DNA of 64,000 bases from Treponema sp. J25 (GTDB taxonomy: Bacteria > Spirochaetota > Spirochaetia > Treponematales > Breznakiellaceae): contig NZ_PTQW01000012.1 in the NCBI RefSeq assembly GCF_004343725.1, positions 124,001-188,000 on the forward strand. Reading direction: 5' to 3'. Shown piece by piece: positions 27,095 to 49,279 of this stretch. The translations under genes and the position numbers were made by a program. The notes under the pieces are model-generated. The model saw only the letters and a list, made by a program, of their open reading frames with translations, was not told the DNA's origin and made no database searches. Numbering within the stretch: position 1 is the first letter of the stretch; each line of letters opens with the position of its first letter.

Positions 27095-27539
27095 CTATTT
27101 CGCAGTTCCTTCTACCTGCGAATAAACTTGTTCAAACTCCTGGGCATTCAAGAACCCCTGGGCGGCGCCCCTGGTGCCAATCTTCCAGCTAGCAAAGACC
27201 ATGGCGCGCTTAAGGGCTTCTTGCGCCGGGAACCCTTTAACATAAAAATTGAGAAATGAAGCAAACAAAGCATCCCCTGCCCCGATAGTAGAAACTACGG
27301 GGCGCGTTTTTATGGCGGGAAAATGAATGCTCTGGCTATTCTGTTCAAGGAGCATAGCCCCTCCCTCTCCCTGGCCGATAACAATGATTCGAGGACTGTA
27401 GAGTTGCATTAATTCCCACTCCAGCCACGGTAGATTGAATTCCCCAAAAGGGGTACCGAACCGGCTCATACTCTATAGGGAAAGCATCGATTTGTAAGGT
27501 GGTCTCTATGTTTACAAGACCTGACACAAGAATCTTCAT
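27095..27539 (-). pseudogene. Decayed PfkB-family sugar kinase with internal deletion
   Basis: Two pieces of a ribokinase/PfkB-type gene are visible in different frames. The N-terminal ~50 codons from ATG 27539 (MKILVSGLVNIETTLQIDAF, then STVAGVGINAT) run directly into codons of the C-terminal third (PRIIVIGQGEGGAMLL, then the catalytic-region motif STIGAGDALFASF). About 150-180 codons are missing and the two halves are out of frame. An intact family member has about 300 residues. The kinase would have phosphorylated a sugar, but the ATP-site motif alone remains. The promoter and operator remain intact upstream, so the remnant now mainly serves as a leader for the pullulanase gene. Confidence 0.88.
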
Positions 27540-27605: not shown

Positions 27606-28325
27606 TTATTTTACATACCCCACATCCCGCAGATGCTCCGCCGTAAGGTAAGTCCACTGGCCTTCAAGGATTCCCAACCTTTCCAGAGAAAGACTCCCAA
27701 TTTGTACCCGCTCAAGCTCTGTACAGCGATTTCCTACTGCCGCCAGCATGCGCTTTACCTGGTGATATTTCCCTTCGTCTACCACCAGTTCAATCTGGAA
27801 GTCCCCGCAAATGGTACACCCCAGGGCCCGGCACAACTCTGCCTCTCCCCTCAACAGGACTCCTTGCAATAGATCCCGGACCATCCTGTCGGTACAGGGT
27901 GCCTCGGTGGTAACCCGGTATGTTTTAGGTATGTGTTTTTTGGGGCTCGTTAGATAGTGAATAAAGGCTCCATCATCGCTAAAGAGCAGGAGTCCCCGGC
28001 TGTCCCAATCAAGACGCCCTACTGGCTGTACACCCCGACGCATAAAATGGGGAGGCAACAACTCAAAAACCGAGTCATGGTGGGTCGGGGCCCGGGAACA
28101 CTCATAGCCCGCCGGTTTATTAAGGGCCACGTAAAGCCTTTGGACATAGGGCCAGGACACACCATCCACCGTAAGAATAGCCCCCTCAGAAAGGCTCACA
28201 GCCCCTTCGGGATCGGTAATCACCGCTCCATCTACCGCACAGCGACCATGGCGAATCATCTGAATACACTCTTTCCGACTGCCAAACCCCTGGGAATGCA
28301 GAATTTTATAGAAGGGCTCACCCAT
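27606..28325 (-). CDS. RsuA/RluB-family pseudouridine synthase
   Basis: About 239 residues from ATG 28325 (MGEPFYKILHSQGFGSRKEC). An S4 RNA-binding domain forms the N-terminus (SRKECIQMIRHGRCAVDG). The catalytic motif is VGRLDWDSRGLLLFSDDG with the family Asp; the C-terminal EGKYHQVKRMLAAVGNRC is the usual substrate-binding loop. It should convert one uridine of rRNA to pseudouridine in the cytoplasm; RsuA-like (16S) fits better than RluB by length. The frame stays open 43 codons further up, but that extension is unlike the family. An ATG eight codons upstream is an alternative; neither has a strong ribosome site. Confidence 0.85.
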   Translation of the reverse strand: MGEPFYKILHSQGFGSRKECIQMIRHGRCAVDGAVITDPEGAVSLSEGAILTVDGVSWPYVQRLYVALNKPAGYECSRAPTHHDSVFELLPPHFMRRGVQPVGRLDWDSRGLLLFSDDGAFIHYLTSPKKHIPKTYRVTTEAPCTDRMVRDLLQGVLLRGEAELCRALGCTICGDFQIELVVDEGKYHQVKRMLAAVGNRCTELERVQIGSLSLERLGILEGQWTYLTAEHLRDVGYVK

Positions 28326-28551: not shown

Positions 28552-28573
28552 ACTGTGACCCCGTCGTCACAGT
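28552..28573. promoter_or_regulatory. 8-bp dyad ACTGTGAC/GTCACAGT downstream of the promoter
   Basis: ACTGTGAC and GTCACAGT are separated by CCCGTC. The half-sites resemble CRP/FNR-type TGTGA...TCACA, but the gap is 8 nt rather than 6. The element lies 25-46 nt after the -10, so a repressor site or an RNA stem in the 5' UTR is plausible. Confidence 0.45.
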
Positions 28574-28650: not shown

Positions 28651-29559
28651 ATGGCTAAAGAAAAACATAAGCTAGCCTACATCACCGGAGGTTCAAGTGG
28701 TATCGGCCTTGCCATTGCCCGGCGACTCGTACAGCAGGGCATAGGGGTATACCTCTTTGGCCGAGACCCCCACAAGTTAGAAAGCGCCGTTACCCAATTA
28801 CGTAAAGAGTGGGAGGGAACTTTTGCCTCCGGTGCCAAGAATGATACCGGCTTACCCCAGAATAGTTCCGCCAGCAAAGAGATGCCCCCACCTATTTACC
28901 AACACCCGCTGGATGTTTCCGACCCACAACAGGTATATGCATGCATCCCCTCCTGTTTAGCCGAATCAGGGACTCCAGACATCCTTATTAATTGCGCCGG
29001 CATAGCGCGGCCAGGTTATTTTGAGGAATTGGCCCCGGAAATTTTTGAACGCACCATCAAAACCAATCTTTTGGGAACCATCCACATGACCCGGGCGGTT
29101 TTTCCGTCGATGGCACAACAGGGCAGCGGCCGAATCATCAATGTATCATCTCTGGCGGGCCTGGTGGGCGTTTTTGGATACACCGCCTATGGGGCAAGCA
29201 AATTCGGGGTCATCGGCTTCTCGGAAACCCTTCGGGCCGAAGCCCGTCGCTATGGTATCACCGTTCAGGTGCTCTGCCCCCCTGACACGGATACGCCCCA
29301 ACTGGCCGAGGAAAATCAATACAAACCTCCAGAAACCCGCCGGATTGCCGGAAATGCCCGATTGCTTTCTCCCGACCAGGTAGCCCGGCGGGTAATCGCA
29401 AAGCTTTCAAGTTCATCATTCTATATTTTTGCGGATACCGAAAGTGCCCTCATTTATCATCTCCACCGACTCTTTCCACGACTGGTAGAGCGGATCATGG
29501 ACTGGCAAATCAAAGATGTCCAAAAGACAAAGCAGGCTATTCCATCAAAAGAGAAATAA
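28651..29559 (+). CDS. 3-ketodihydrosphingosine reductase-like short-chain dehydrogenase
   Basis: 302 residues, Rossmann-fold SDR. The NADP(H) motif TGGSSGIG is near residue 11, NCAGIA follows, and the catalytic Ser and YxxxK are in NVSSLAGL...YTAYGASK. The segment PPDTDTPQLAEENQYKPPET is the hallmark of eukaryotic KDSR (PPDTDTPxxAEEN), which points to 3-ketodihydrosphingosine rather than a generic substrate. It would reduce the product of the serine palmitoyltransferase encoded 13 nt downstream to dihydrosphingosine. The C-terminal ~40 residues (YHLHRLFPRLVERIMDWQIK) form an amphipathic tail as in membrane-associated KDSRs. Function is inferred from motif plus gene pairing. Confidence 0.85.
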   Translation: MAKEKHKLAYITGGSSGIGLAIARRLVQQGIGVYLFGRDPHKLESAVTQLRKEWEGTFASGAKNDTGLPQNSSASKEMPPPIYQHPLDVSDPQQVYACIPSCLAESGTPDILINCAGIARPGYFEELAPEIFERTIKTNLLGTIHMTRAVFPSMAQQGSGRIINVSSLAGLVGVFGYTAYGASKFGVIGFSETLRAEARRYGITVQVLCPPDTDTPQLAEENQYKPPETRRIAGNARLLSPDQVARRVIAKLSSSSFYIFADTESALIYHLHRLFPRLVERIMDWQIKDVQKTKQAIPSKEK

Positions 29560-29572
29560 AGGAAGGAACATC

Positions 29573-30784
29573 ATGGGAACACGAGAAGATCTATTTAGCA
29601 AGTGTTACGCCTTTACCGCCGCCGAAGAGGCCCGAAAAGAAGGGTGGTATCCCTACTTCCGTCCTATCGAAGCGAACCGGGGAAACAAGGTAATCATCGA
29701 AGGCCGAGAGATGATTATGGCGGGGTCCAACAACTACCTCGGCCTTGCCTTTGACGAACGGGTCCGAGAAGCCGCTATTAAGGCGGTGGAAAAGTACGGC
29801 ACCAGTTGTTCCGGTTCCCGCTTCATGAACGGAACCCTGGCACTTCACGAAGAACTCGAGTGGCGCCTTGCCCGCTTTGTGGGTAAAGAGGCAGCCCTTA
29901 CCTTTACCACGGGCTATCAGACCAATTTAGGGAGCATCTCCGCCCTCATCGGTCGGAGTGACCATGTGGTAACCGACAAATTCGACCACGCTTCCATCAT
30001 GGATGGCATCTTTTTAAGCACCGGCCTTAACAAACACGTGAATTTGCATCGATTCAAGCATAATGATATCGACGATTTACAGAAGGTTTTAGAAAAAATC
30101 CCCCCAGGGGAACCCATCCTCATCGTACTCGATGGGGTCTTCAGCATGGAGGGGGATATCGCCCGGCTCCCCGAAATCCGTAAAATCGCCGACCAGTTCG
30201 GGGCCCGCATCTATCTTGATGAGGCCCACGCCATCGGGGTTATTGGCCCTACCGGCCGGGGGACAGTAGAACACTACGGGAATGTGGCGCAGGCGGACCT
30301 TATCATGTGTACCTTTTCCAAATCTTTTGGTTCAATTGGGGGTTTTGTGGCGGGCGATGCGGCGGTCATAGATTATATCCGCCACTTTGCCCGGCCCCTT
30401 ATCTTTAGCGCCAGCATGCCCCCCGCGAACATTGCCGCCGCAGCCAAGGCTCTGGAAATCATCGAAGCCGAACCAGAGCGGATACAGCGGCTCCAGGCCA
30501 TTGCTCAAAAGATGCTTCGGGGCTTTAAAGAGCTTGGTTTTGACATTGGCACCGCCGAAACCCCCATCGTTCCTCTGCATATTAAGGATAACCAGAAAAC
30601 CTTCCTCTTCTGGAAAGCCCTGTACGAAGCGGGGATTTACGTAAATCCCGTTATAGCCCCAGCGGTTCCTCCCAATGGGGCCCTTATCAGAACCTCCTAC
30701 ATGGCTATTCATACCGACGAAGAACTGGATACAATCCTTGAAGTATCTGGCCAGGTAGGGAAACGGTTAGGGATTATTCCGTAA
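29573..30784 (+). CDS. Serine palmitoyltransferase-like alpha-oxoamine synthase
   Basis: 403 residues from ATG 29573 (GGAAGG upstream). A PLP enzyme of the alpha-oxoamine synthase family: His139 in FDHAS stacks on PLP, LDEAHA (Asp216, His219) binds the ring, and Lys250 in CTFSKSFGSIGG forms the Schiff base. The family also includes KBL and BioF, which share these residues. The long acyl-CoA substrate is inferred from the KDSR-like partner, from RPLIFSASMPP near the active site and from the lack of any biotin or threonine-catabolism gene nearby. It would condense serine with palmitoyl-CoA to 3-ketodihydrosphingosine, the committed step of sphingolipid synthesis. Confidence 0.82.
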   Translation: MGTREDLFSKCYAFTAAEEARKEGWYPYFRPIEANRGNKVIIEGREMIMAGSNNYLGLAFDERVREAAIKAVEKYGTSCSGSRFMNGTLALHEELEWRLARFVGKEAALTFTTGYQTNLGSISALIGRSDHVVTDKFDHASIMDGIFLSTGLNKHVNLHRFKHNDIDDLQKVLEKIPPGEPILIVLDGVFSMEGDIARLPEIRKIADQFGARIYLDEAHAIGVIGPTGRGTVEHYGNVAQADLIMCTFSKSFGSIGGFVAGDAAVIDYIRHFARPLIFSASMPPANIAAAAKALEIIEAEPERIQRLQAIAQKMLRGFKELGFDIGTAETPIVPLHIKDNQKTFLFWKALYEAGIYVNPVIAPAVPPNGALIRTSYMAIHTDEELDTILEVSGQVGKRLGIIP

Positions 30785-30873: not shown

Positions 30874-31788
30874 ATGAGTATCGTAGAAGCCTTGTTTTTA
30901 GGGATTGTACAGGGCCTTACCGAATTTCTACCCGTAAGTAGTTCGGGGCACCTGGTGCTTTTTCAAAAGCTTTTTGGGTTAAAGGATGTGCCCCTCTTGT
31001 TTGATACCCTGCTCCATTGTGGAACCCTCCTGGCTGTTTTTGTTGCCCTCTGGGATGACATCTGGCCCCTTATTCAGAGACCTTTCCAGAAAACCACGTA
31101 CCTCGTCATAGTGGCAACCCTTCCCACGGTAATCATAGCCCTGCTCTTTAAAGATTTCATTGAAACAGCCTTCTCCACGGGCGCCTGGCTCGGATGGGGC
31201 TTTCTTCTTACCACTACCTTCCTTTTAGTGGGAGAAATACTCTCACGCCGGTTTATCCCTCAGAACACCGCCGCAGAAACAGGGACAACCCAGGGACCAG
31301 AAGCGCCAGGGGTCGCTCAGCCCCCCGTTTTAGCGCCCCGGGATACCGCACATCACCATAAGGGGCTCCCCATCAAAGATGCCGCCCAGATGGGATATCT
31401 CCGGGCCCTTTTCGTGGGACTCATGCAGGGCATTGCCATTTTCCCCGCCATATCCCGCTCAGGAAGCACCATTGCGGGGGGGCTTATGGCGGGCTGCGAA
31501 CGGTCCTACGCAGGACGATTCTCGTTCCTCATGGCTATTCCCGCCATCCTGGGGGCCCTGGTATTTCAACTCAAAGATATCATGCACGAAGGCCCTGGCA
31601 TTCTGGGGGGCCTGTCAGCACCTGTCCTGGTGGTTGGCACCGGAGCAGCAGCCATAACGGGGTTTCTTGCTATAAAACTTCTTCTTAAAATATTACAAAA
31701 AGGGCACCTCTGGGGCTTTGCCTGCTACACGGGGTTCCTCGCCCTTTTGATTCTTATGGACCAATACCTGGTACATCTTGTTTTTTAA
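30874..31788 (+). CDS. uppP: Undecaprenyl-diphosphatase UppP/BacA
   Basis: 304 residues, polytopic inner-membrane protein that dephosphorylates undecaprenyl diphosphate to recycle the lipid carrier of peptidoglycan; overproduction gives bacitracin resistance in other bacteria. Signature motifs: the (E)FLPVSSSGHLVL region near residue 17 and FPAISRSGSTI near residue 195. A ~60-residue polar insert (PQNTAAETGTTQGPEAP...) sits between the halves, making it longer than the usual ~270. It follows the sphingoid operon on the same strand after 89 nt that contain an imperfect hairpin (30796-30828). Confidence 0.95.
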   Translation: MSIVEALFLGIVQGLTEFLPVSSSGHLVLFQKLFGLKDVPLLFDTLLHCGTLLAVFVALWDDIWPLIQRPFQKTTYLVIVATLPTVIIALLFKDFIETAFSTGAWLGWGFLLTTTFLLVGEILSRRFIPQNTAAETGTTQGPEAPGVAQPPVLAPRDTAHHHKGLPIKDAAQMGYLRALFVGLMQGIAIFPAISRSGSTIAGGLMAGCERSYAGRFSFLMAIPAILGALVFQLKDIMHEGPGILGGLSAPVLVVGTGAAAITGFLAIKLLLKILQKGHLWGFACYTGFLALLILMDQYLVHLVF

Positions 31789-31848: not shown

Positions 31849-32634
31849 TCATCGGGATCGAATGGTGCCAGTTCCGGGGATACGGCTCTTAATCCGGGGA
31901 TTACCGCTGTAGGTAATGGTCCCGGAACCGGCAATGGTGATATCCAATTCTTCAAAAACACCGAGGTCCGAGTTACCCGCCCCCAATACGGAGATATTCC
32001 CCTCTTTTCCGGTCAAGTTATGGGCCTTCAGGGTACCGCGTCCCAACAGTTGATACTCCAGTTTTTCTACGGTACCGGAAATTTCCACCGTTCCCGACCC
32101 TAATACCTTTAGCTGAAGCTCTTCTACGTTGACTGGTAACGACACCGTGCCTGAACCGGCAAGCTCTAACAGAAAGGACGGTCCTTCAAGCGTCGAATCC
32201 CCCCGTACGTCTGCCATCCCCGCAATCGAAATTTTTTCAAGGTGGTCGGCGATTGTTATAGAATATTCGATAGGCGCATTTTTTAAAAATAGAAAATTCT
32301 TTTGTTGTCCCAGCACCAGGGTACGCCCTTCTACCCGTGTATCAAGGGAATCTATGACGTTTTTATCTGCCCGGATGGTGACGGCCCAGGCATCGCCTTT
32401 TCGAAACACTACCCGGCCGGCGCCGGGGATGCTCACCTGCGAAAAAGGGGAAAGTTCCTTTCGTACTTCCACTATTTCGCCCGAAAGCTCCCGTTCATTC
32501 TGCACCGAAAGAAATGAAGGCAATTGCAGCGTCCCCCCTTTTTGAGAGGGGCTCCTTCGAGTAAGCCCATAAAAGGTGCTCCCCACCGTGATAAGCCCCA
32601 CAAGGAGTAACCCATAGGCAATAACCTTTTTCAT
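31849..32634 (-). CDS. GIN-domain (DUF2807-type) exported protein
   Basis: 261 residues. An N-terminal membrane anchor or signal (VIAYGLLLVGLITVGSTFYG), a short linker, then repeating beta-strand turns rich in GSGT/GAG (LAGSGTVSLPV, LGSGTVEISG, LLGRGTLKAH, AGSGTITYSG), typical of the DUF2807 beta-helix called GIN or putative auto-transporter adhesin. It is probably displayed in the periplasm or on the surface; the function in this family is unknown. It stands alone between uppP (convergent) and the response regulator gene. Confidence 0.8.
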   Translation of the reverse strand: MKKVIAYGLLLVGLITVGSTFYGLTRRSPSQKGGTLQLPSFLSVQNERELSGEIVEVRKELSPFSQVSIPGAGRVVFRKGDAWAVTIRADKNVIDSLDTRVEGRTLVLGQQKNFLFLKNAPIEYSITIADHLEKISIAGMADVRGDSTLEGPSFLLELAGSGTVSLPVNVEELQLKVLGSGTVEISGTVEKLEYQLLGRGTLKAHNLTGKEGNISVLGAGNSDLGVFEELDITIAGSGTITYSGNPRIKSRIPGTGTIRSR

Positions 32635-46172: not shown

Positions 46173-47342
46173 TTACTTTACCGCCCTCTTCAGGGCATCC
46201 ACCTTATCGGTTTTTTCCCAGCTAAAACCGTCTCTCCCAAAATGTCCATAAGTAGCGGTACGGCGATAGATAGGCCTTAATAAATCCAGGGTCTTAATAA
46301 TTCCCGCCGGGGAAAGATCGAATACTTCCTGGATGGCCTTTTCAATTACCTGCTCCGGAACCCGGCCCGTACCAAAGGTTTCCACCATCACTGACACCGG
46401 GAAGGGAACCCCAATGGCGTAGGCCAGTTGGACCTCGCAGCGCTCCGCCAGCCCTGCGGCAACCACATTTTTTGCCACATAGCGAGCCATGTAGGCGGCT
46501 GAGCGGTCTACTTTTGTGGGATCCTTCCCTGAAAAGGCGCCTCCCCCGTGACGTCCCATACCGCCGTAGGTATCCACGATGATTTTTCGTCCCGTAAGTC
46601 CCGTATCCCCATAGGGCCCACCAATCACAAAGCGGCCGGTGGGGTTAATGAAATAGCGGGTTTTTTCATCCAATAATCCCGTTGGGGCCAGAACAGGTTT
46701 TATAATTTCTTCGATGATGGTGTATTTTATTTCATCGTAGGCAATCCCATCATCATGTTGATGGGACACTACCACCGTATCAATCCGAATAGGCTTATGT
46801 CCCTGATACACCACCGAAACCTGGCTTTTTGCATCGGGCCGCAACCACGGAATCGTTTTGGCCTTTCGCAAATGGGTGGCCCGCTCAAGGATTCGATGGG
46901 CCAGGAGAATAGGAGCAGGCATAAGCTCTGGTGTCTCGCTACAGGCGAAACCAAACATCATGCCCTGGTCTCCCGCACCCTGCTGCCCTTTAAATTCTTC
47001 AAGGCCGTTACCCGAAACCCCCTGACTGATATCAGCGGATTGGCCATGGATCATATCGAGCACCGCCATGGATTCATAATCCAATCCATAGGCGGGATCT
47101 GTGTAGCCCACTTCTTTTACCACATCCCGGACCACCTGCTGGATATCCACAAAGGTGTTGGTGGTAATCTCACCGCCCACTAACACCATCGCCGTAGAAG
47201 CAAAGGTTTCACAGGCCACGCGGCTTGAAGGATCATCCCTAAGGCAGGCATCAAGAATGGCATCAGAAATCTGATCGCAGAGCTTATCAGGATGGCCTTC
47301 TCCCACCGATTCGGAGGTAAAAATGTAGGTACGATCACTCAT
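46173..47342 (-). CDS. metK: S-adenosylmethionine synthetase
   Basis: 389 residues, standard length. [20 protein letters not shown] at the N-terminus, [15 protein letters not shown] with the hexapeptide loop, and [16 protein letters not shown] (ATP/phosphate binding) are all intact. It makes S-adenosylmethionine from methionine and ATP. Its ATG shares one base with the stop of the acyl-CoA ligase gene (TGATG), so translation is coupled. No SAM riboswitch was recognised upstream. A 9-bp stem (CCACCCCAG/CTGGGGTGG, 46120-46161) follows without a U-tract. Confidence 0.98.
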
Positions 47343-49279
47343 CAGGGTCTCCTCTCGTTAAAATAGGTATTTAAAACCGCCAGGTTCTGGGGATTCTTAT
47401 AGGTTGAACCTTCGTTGTAAATATATTCCAAGACCGAATGGTATTTTTCCACCACCTTATGGCGCACCAGCTTCATGGTAGAATTGATTAAACCGTCCTT
47501 TTCGCTAAAGGGCTCTGGAATAATCTGGAAGGTGGCCGGCGTCCAGTTAAGGGGCACCATATTTTTATACGACGGATCCTGGCGGAAAGAATAGAAACTG
47601 TCCTTGATTACCTCAAGGAGTTCTTCCGCTGTCTTTATATGCCGCTCGCGGATGGTCCGACGAACCTTTTCTTCATCCAGGGTTATGAGCGCACAGGTAA
47701 ATTTCTTGTGGTCGTTCCAGACCATGACCTGATTTATCATGGTAGCGGAGTTTAAGATGGCATCCTCTATTCCTTCGGGGCTGTACTTCTCTCCATCCGC
47801 CGAAATCAGGAGGGCCTTCGCTCGTCCGGCCACGGTAAGATACCCATCCGCATCGAGCCAGCCAAGGTCTCCGGTGTGAAGCCAGCCCCCCCGCAGGGCC
47901 TCCTGGGTAGCCTCAGGATTCTTAAAATACCCCTTCATTACGTTGGGGCCCCGGACACAAATTTCTCCCTTTTCGCCGGGAGCCGCCACGGTCCCATCTT
48001 CCCGTTCAATCCGAATCTCTACATGATCCAGGGGGATACCACTGGTCCCCAGCTTGCAATGTTCCGCAATGTTGGTCGAAATGACCGGCGACGCTTCGGT
48101 CATTCCGTAGCCCTGGTACAGGGGCATGCCCAGGGCCCGATAGAACCGCTGTTGACCGATATCAAAGCTCGCCCCTCCCCCGGAAAAGAACTGGGCCCGC
48201 CGTCCAAACACTTGCGTACGGACCTTATCCAGTACCAGCTTCCGAAGGGGCCAATAGATAAGACCATTTACAAAGGACTTCAGTGTCTTCGGTGGATGGG
48301 TATGGTCCCCCCAATAGGCAATACCACTTTTTATCCCTAGATCAAAAAGGGTCTTCACTATTCCACCCCGCTTATCGATTTCGGCAATGATTTTTTTCAT
48401 GAAATTCGCCGAAAGGGCCGGCACAGTCATCATAAAGACGGGCTCACATTCCTTAAGGTTCTGGGGGATATTCCGGAGGATCGCCATGGATCCCCCGCGG
48501 GAATCTACAAACCAGAGTTGAATACCCCGCTGGACCGCCGCATGGATCCCAACGGTTTGAGCAAAGGAGTGGTCCACTGGAAGGATAACAAAATTCACGT
48601 ATTTTGCTTCTGGAACTTTAAAAATATTCACCGAATCAAGGCTATTGATATAGTAGTTATAATGGGTAAGCATGATACCCTTCGGGTTCCCGGTGGTTCC
48701 CGAGGTATAAGAAATGGTGACCACATCGTCGCCCTGGCAGTTTTTTTCAATTTGATCGAGTTTTGATGCGGTTACCGAAAGAGCCGCCTCCCCCTGGGTC
48801 CGACAGTGATCCATCCTGAAAAGCCGGTCCCGGGGAAAATCACAGGAGCTAAGGTCATAGGTTTCATCTAAACAAATGATAGTCAGGGGTTTGCCCGTTT
48901 TCTGTTCCACGTCCCGGCACACCCGGGCAATCTTATCAATATGGTTGGTATTGGTGGCCACGATTTTTGCTTCCGAATGTTCAAGTCGATACAGAATTTC
49001 TTCCGGCAAAAGTTTGAACGAAAGGGGAACGGCAATGCAACCGGCCATGATGGTGCCGTATTCGGCCACAATCCAGTTGGGACTTCCCTCCGCATAGATA
49101 GCAAGCCGGTCCTCCTTCTGCATTCCATAGTTCAACAAAAAGGAGGCAAACAAACGGGCTTCGTCAAAGGTCTGATTAAAGGTTTTATATTTCCAGCCCT
49201 CGTCGGTCTTCTGATACGCAAAGGGTTTATCTCCAAATCGCTGCCTTGCCTGGGCTATCATCGTAAAAAGAGTTTCCAT
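47342..49279 (-). CDS. Long-chain acyl-CoA synthetase (AMP-forming ligase)
   Basis: 645 residues. AMP-binding motif [49 protein letters not shown] and the C-terminal subdomain are intact. The length and the [20 protein letters not shown] region fit bacterial FadD15/FACL-type long-chain ligases. Activates fatty acids to acyl-CoA, which could supply the serine palmitoyltransferase at 29573 (inference). The next gene, metK, starts at its stop codon. Confidence 0.9.

Follow-up and report, generated by a model that had tools for sequence, protein, structure and literature searches.

A reductase-synthase gene pair and its surroundings

The window analyzed here is a 64-kb stretch (G000:C12:124001-188000) of a spirochaete genome of 3.18 Mb in 66 contigs, which is 99.88% complete. 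It carries a gene for a KDSR-like short-chain dehydrogenase/reductase (SDR), followed on the same strand by one for a serine palmitoyltransferase (SPT)-like PLP enzyme of the alpha-oxoamine synthase (AOS) type (Table 1). The open frame of the AOS begins at 29516, and the ATG at 29573 was preferred as its start for its fit to relatives and for a Shine-Dalgarno-like sequence, AGGAAGGA, in the gap. Since this ATG was taken as the start, the gap between the two genes measures 13 nt (29560-29572).

Table 1. Features in and around the gene pair
Feature	Position	Strand	Basis or remark
RsuA/RluB-type pseudouridine synthase, left flank	27606..28325	-	Start placed at 28325 to match relatives; frame open as far as 28454
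Perfect palindrome CTGTGAC-N6-GTCACAG	28553..28572		78 nt before the KDSR start
KDSR-like SDR, 302 aa	28651..29559	+	ORF, Pfam, motif and profile searches
SPT-like PLP enzyme (AOS), 403 aa	29573..30784	+	ORF, curated models, tree, residues
UppP/BacA undecaprenyl-pyrophosphate phosphatase, right flank	30874..31788	+	89 nt after the SPT stop
DUF2807 protein	31849..32634	-	Last of the three genes in the conserved flank block (pseudouridine synthase, UppP, DUF2807)
Acyl-CoA ligase, AMP-ligase family	47342-49279	-	Next to metK

The GC content of the pair does not differ from that of its flanks, and searches for tRNA genes and Rfam families found none in the 64-kb window. The palindrome upstream of the pair occurs as a single exact copy in the genome, the remaining matches carrying 2 mismatches; it is possibly an operator or regulator site, or a stem-loop. 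UppP was set aside as a member of the operon since, in relatives without the pair, its gene stands next to that of the pseudouridine synthase. Two further observations concern the surroundings. UppP holds a stretch at residues ~134 to 170 that is absent from its relatives, and an open frame of 124 aa (27095-27469, minus strand) stands alone beside a gene for an alpha-glucan enzyme. This frame may be a gene remnant; it resembles the C-terminal part of a PfkB-type sugar kinase.

Assignment of the synthase and the reductase

Among the curated NCBI models, the AOS was matched best by SerpalmtaseCFB (515.6 bits), ahead of bioF (367 bits), two glycine C-acetyltransferase models (353 and 297 bits), and 5-aminolevulinate synthase (250 bits). 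The score is under the curated cut-off of NF047600 (SPT of the CFB group, equivalog; 640 bits), which leaves the enzyme outside that narrower family. Against PDB sequences, SPTs came first, with 408 bits to the Sphingobacterium enzyme versus 264 bits to the best KBL/BioF-type chain and 207 bits to BioF; the two SulA-type (cysteate acyltransferase) chains scored 228 and 210 bits. A tree was then built from 70 rows (66 from the fetched loci and the window, plus 4 references), hand-picked from 112 extracted rows and the references, with near-duplicates and distant rows omitted. The window SPT falls within a clade of 13 spirochaete rows (support, 100/100) that is nested in a clade with both SPT references (99/97); the SulA rows form a separate clade (100/100), and the KBL reference also lies outside the SPT clade.

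The active site agrees with this placement. The PLP lysine (K250) and residues H139, D216, H219, and R373 align with those of the SPT references. According to PMC9304779, SulA and SPT are told apart by a lysine versus an alanine at position 281, and the window enzyme has the SPT-type alanine (A280) in that column. Among 35 rows compared, the column holds Ala in 28/28 SPT-type rows (the window included), Lys in 3/3 SulA-type rows, and Thr or Asn in 4/4 KBL/BioF-type rows. With the Sphingobacterium SPT (PDB 8guh/3a2b; Bacteroidota/myxobacterial type) the enzyme shares the fold family, the PLP lysine, the H/D/H/R residues, the alanine, and the clade, whereas about half of the residues differ and ~5 extra residues follow residue 150 in the window enzyme. 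At position 85, the window's clade carries Met and the SPT references carry Leu. These data offer good support for the assignment of the AOS as an SPT-like enzyme, apart from KBL/BioF and from SulA. The preliminary description had named clustering with KBL or BioF as the result that would speak against an SPT, and the opposite was found in both the tree and the Lys281 column.

The SDR scored above the Pfam threshold for adh_short (179 bits) and displays a TGGSSGIG nucleotide-binding loop, a catalytic triad (S167/Y180/K184), and a CPPDTDTP...KPPET segment, with CPPDTDTPQLAEEN from residue 209. The triad and CPPDTDTP are kept in all eight SPT-linked spirochaete SDRs (the window and seven other genomes). 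These seven proteins are ~40 to 44% identical to the window SDR, which alone among the eight rows contains a stretch of ~20 residues at ~57 to 78. The motif is also present in five further SDRs of distant spirochaetes (L141, L142, L158, L159, and L160).

The SDR lies under every curated cut-off among the best 25 of 212 models, and a full-length profile placed the eukaryotic reductase TSC10 fourth of 401 PDB matches; the three that ranked higher are a two-domain hydroxyacyl-CoA dehydrogenase, a large SDR, and clavaldehyde dehydrogenase. The AlphaFold model (mean pLDDT, 78.6) was matched equally well by many SDRs, and TSC10 was not among the best 50 matches listed; the fold comparison was dropped as a clue to the substrate since it gave generic SDR matches only. 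In contrast, a profile of 59 columns around CPPDTDTP, searched against 177,635 distinct PDB sequences, retrieved TSC10 at an E value of 3e-5, then DHRS6 at 0.33, and nothing else to an E value of 1. With TSC10 (PDB 8jat, which we take to be the Cryptococcus-type protein) the SDR has in common the S/Y/K triad and an ENxTKPxxTK-type segment after the catalytic core, while overall identity is low. Grouping of the motif-bearing SDRs with TSC10 reaches only 80/86 in the SDR tree, where TSC10 has a very long branch (4.1, with a long-branch warning) and the window SDR is unplaced; by identity, the row most similar to the latter comes from f46, in another part of the phylum (49%). Because neither the full-length profile nor the fold singles out TSC10, the KDSR call is built on the segment profile, the linkage to SPT, and the weaker tree, which together support a KDSR-like reductase. 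The eukaryotic type of the KDSR motif, as claimed beforehand, holds in the sense that the 59-residue segment profile picks TSC10 alone in the PDB at E < 0.3.

Distribution, linkage, and origin of the pair

To place the pair in its phylum, 392 spirochaete genomes were surveyed. SPTs scoring at least ~350 bits are present in 59 of them, one being a fragment, and the close type (at least 585 bits; 64 to 100% identity) in 13. A KDSR gene adjoins the close-type SPT in eight of the 13 (G000, G006, G049, G142, G256, G328, G369, and G375), and five are without KDSR; in the seven genomes other than that of the window, order and strand are conserved, with the SDR directly before the SPT. Thus, the SPT-like and KDSR-like genes that the preliminary description had placed 13 nt apart in a spirochaete are both open reading frames at that place, one scoring 408 bits to an SPT, and form a conserved pair. 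The nearest named record is an HGW-Spirochaetae-7 MAG (68%). A gene of the bCerS family occurs in seven of the 13 close-type genomes (G224, G256, G261, G326, G369, G373, and G375), so that five genomes have KDSR without bCerS, four have bCerS without KDSR, three have both, and one (G280) has neither.

Over the whole set, KDSR (at least 330 bits) and SPT (at least 350 bits) were found together in 20/392 genomes, SPT alone in 39, KDSR alone in 7, and neither in 326. The co-occurrence is significant by Fisher's test (P = 6e-13, uncorrected for kinship). Of the seven genomes with KDSR alone, two (G057 and G162) contain SPT pieces that are truncated at the end of a contig. Furthermore, bCerS, KDSR, and SPT genes stand in a row on one strand in two genomes of different classes (G256 and G087).

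Other neighbors of the module were also noted. A protein of 428 aa adjoins SPT in G256 and G373 (L032:9212-10495 and L038:11220-12173, both minus strand; 59% identical) and has no Pfam or NCBIfam match; it is a candidate for a further sphingolipid gene. In G369 and G375, a gene for a MarR-type regulator overlaps the KDSR gene start (L034:10063-10584, minus strand, and L050), and its product possibly regulates the module there.

Within the window's own family, SPT (E ≤ 1e-90) was found in 1 of 195 genomes, namely, G000 itself, 42 of the 195 being at least 90% complete. In three relatives from one other genus (G194, G401, and G402), the order and orientation seen in the window recur for the genes of the pseudouridine synthase, UppP, and DUF2807 without the pair, and the gap between the pseudouridine synthase gene and uppP is less than 160 bp. 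Six more genomes of the family were searched, and none preserves this neighborhood: in five, no close copy of the synthase is present, and in G304, the matches to the pseudouridine synthase and UppP lie on different contigs. As the flanking genes are direct neighbors in three relatives, the pair has the look of an insertion, and the simplest reading is that it was inserted between the pseudouridine synthase gene and uppP in the lineage of the window.

SPT bearers of the same order in families f3 and f4 carry a different type of SPT, which groups with Chloroflexi (99/98). The window SPT is sister to the rows of family f5 (98/76, unstarred), which points to a common origin with that family for the SPT only, since the window row is unplaced in the SDR tree. 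Because the SDR placement does not settle the matter, it is from their adjacency that we infer a transfer of the two genes together. The pair seems to have been acquired by horizontal transfer without the bacterial third-step gene, the direction of change being presumed. Plasmids of Priestia megaterium, Rubrobacter, and Aureispira were also seen to carry SPT-like genes (~50% identity), which suggests that SPT genes are mobile in general.

Proposed pathway and its end product

We consider it likely that the two genes constitute a co-transcribed KDSR-SPT module that makes sphinganine, was inserted in this lineage, and ends either at the free base or at the work of another N-acyltransferase. In this small module, the SPT would convert L-serine and an acyl thioester into 3-ketosphinganine, the donor probably being acyl-ACP by analogy with the systems treated in PMC9304779 and PMC9386255, and the product of the adjacent gene would reduce 3-ketosphinganine with a nicotinamide cofactor to sphinganine. 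Reduction would then precede N-acylation, which is the eukaryotic order of steps, and the second step would be of the sort found in fungi and animals. Both reactions have bacterial precedents, in SPTs and in the reductase BT_0972, for which PMC9278070 demonstrates the step both in E. coli and in vitro. The supply of substrate by the acyl-CoA ligase at 47342, as put forward earlier, found no backing: its gene is unlinked, ~16.5 kb off on the opposite strand, and nothing ties it to the pair, so that the ligase was set aside as a partner of the module. According to PMC9386255, spt is linked to a dedicated ligase and a carrier protein in Caulobacter and other Rhodobacteria; no such gene was found among the flanks scanned around the window pair.

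The end product hinges on the third enzyme. A GNAT-type protein (P0001) adjoins SPT in G256 and G373, and its relatives are immediate neighbors of SPT in Myxococcus, Elusimicrobia, Acidobacteria, one Saprospiraceae record, and one Bacteroidales record. P0001 aligns with the E. coli protein YghO along its full length (28%), and yghO is given in PMC9386255 and PMC11324152 as the counterpart of Caulobacter CC_1154, an N-acyltransferase required for dihydroceramide. A 13-member profile of this bCerS (YghO) family matched 101 of the 392 genomes of the phylum, and it gave no match even at an E value of 10 in G000, G006, G049, G142, G328, and G280. Eukaryotic LAG1 (PF03798) was absent from 8/8 genomes searched, G000 included, and Acetyltransf_5 (PF13444, OlsB-type) had no match in G000, these three families being the scope of the N-acyltransferase screen of that genome. 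Because no relative of bCerS/YghO or LAG1 was found in G000, and none in four other KDSR-SPT genomes either, sphinganine, free or acylated by some other enzyme, is the likeliest product. The sphingoid-base operon of the preliminary description is well supported, whereas a full sphingolipid pathway is not, no known ceramide synthase having been found in the genome.

Four other readings were weighed against this one. The closest overlaps with it and differs in the end product alone: a complete dihydroceramide pathway could begin with this pair and be finished by an unrecognised or very divergent N-acyltransferase encoded elsewhere in the genome. Acylation is to be expected because long-chain bases in free form are membrane-active, and KDSR, SPT, and bCerS do occur together in three related genomes (G256, G369, and G375). 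However, G000 yielded no match to any of the three families screened, and four other KDSR-SPT genomes are also without bCerS, two of these being assembled as one contig. We regard this reading as a serious contender that falls somewhat short of probable. Much less probable is that bases of the 1-deoxysphinganine type are made, with alanine (or glycine) as the substrate of the synthase. Such a route is suggested for some bacteria by headless 1-deoxyceramides, reported in PMC11334938 from anoxic Black Sea water where SPT-bearing anaerobes are common, and the residues checked cannot reveal the choice of substrate; all of them are nevertheless equal to those of serine-using SPTs.

The remaining two readings dispute the identity of the enzymes themselves. 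In one, the pair would make sulfonolipid (capnine) through a cysteate acyltransferase (SulA) and a 3-ketocapnine reductase, and it gains from the close relationship of SulA and SPT and from KDSR-like SDRs that serve as 3-ketocapnine reductases, as reported in PMC11211663. Alanine in place of the SulA lysine, the separate SulA clade, and the far lower bit scores to both SulA-type chains than to SPT make it very unlikely. The other takes the synthase for a glycine C-acetyltransferase (KBL) or BioF and the reductase for an unrelated FabG-like enzyme; it could appeal to the size of both superfamilies and to generic SDR scores, which are high for many families. It is contradicted by the SPT tree and the Lys281 column, by the specificity of the segment profile for TSC10, and by the conserved linkage, including the bCerS-KDSR-SPT operons, and we hold it to be largely refuted and the least credible of the four.

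With a sphinganine-making KDSR-SPT module as the preferred reading, the locus can be set beside characterized bacterial systems. BT_0972 is likewise a bacterial SDR for the KDSR step, a likeness drawn from its description in PMC9278070; according to that text its gene is not clustered with SPT, whereas the two genes are adjacent in the window. The Caulobacter pathway (Spt, bCerS, and CerR) has the first step, SPT, in common with the window. In PMC11087976, N-acylation is placed before reduction in that organism and CerR is epimerase-like and periplasmic, in contrast to the KDSR-type SDR of the window; furthermore, Caulobacter has bCerS, of which no relative (bCerS/YghO) was found in the window's genome. 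The cluster of Pseudomonas MYb115 with PfSgaC also contains a KDSR-like SDR among bacterial sphingolipid genes, and its authors (PMC12134224) describe such a eukaryotic-like step as unusual for bacteria; their pathway has a polyketide synthase cluster as its basis rather than a plain SPT-KDSR pair.

Whether acylation comes first (bCerS/CerR) or reduction comes first (KDSR) in bacteria is debated. Sphingolipid synthesis is, to our knowledge, not usually credited to spirochaetes, and a search of the open-licence literature, judged mostly by titles, returned no report of SPT or sphingolipid genes in them. The main text of the Black Sea paper (PMC11334938; its list of 38 phyla is in the supplement) contains no word beginning with "spiroch". 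The enzymes described here are of known kinds, and what appears new is their combination, KDSR-SPT without bCerS in spirochaetes, which was not found in the open-licence literature, the scope of the search being papers of that kind without supplements. Spirochaetes supply natural cases of each step order and of both, and since KDSR-only, bCerS-only, and combined genomes exist among them, the question of step order can be tested within one phylum. KDSR-SPT genomes in which no known ceramide synthase occurs suggest either a missing enzyme or an end product of free long-chain bases. As a more tentative extension, for which the case is still a little weaker than even, we propose that a mobile KDSR-SPT module of spirochaetes with the eukaryotic step order works without either known class of ceramide synthase, its hosts having either unacylated sphinganine for a membrane lipid or an undiscovered family of N-acyltransferases. 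Outside the phylum, a rumen-type Bacteroidales MAG carries two tandem genes of the bCerS family after SPT (L077:9230-11496).
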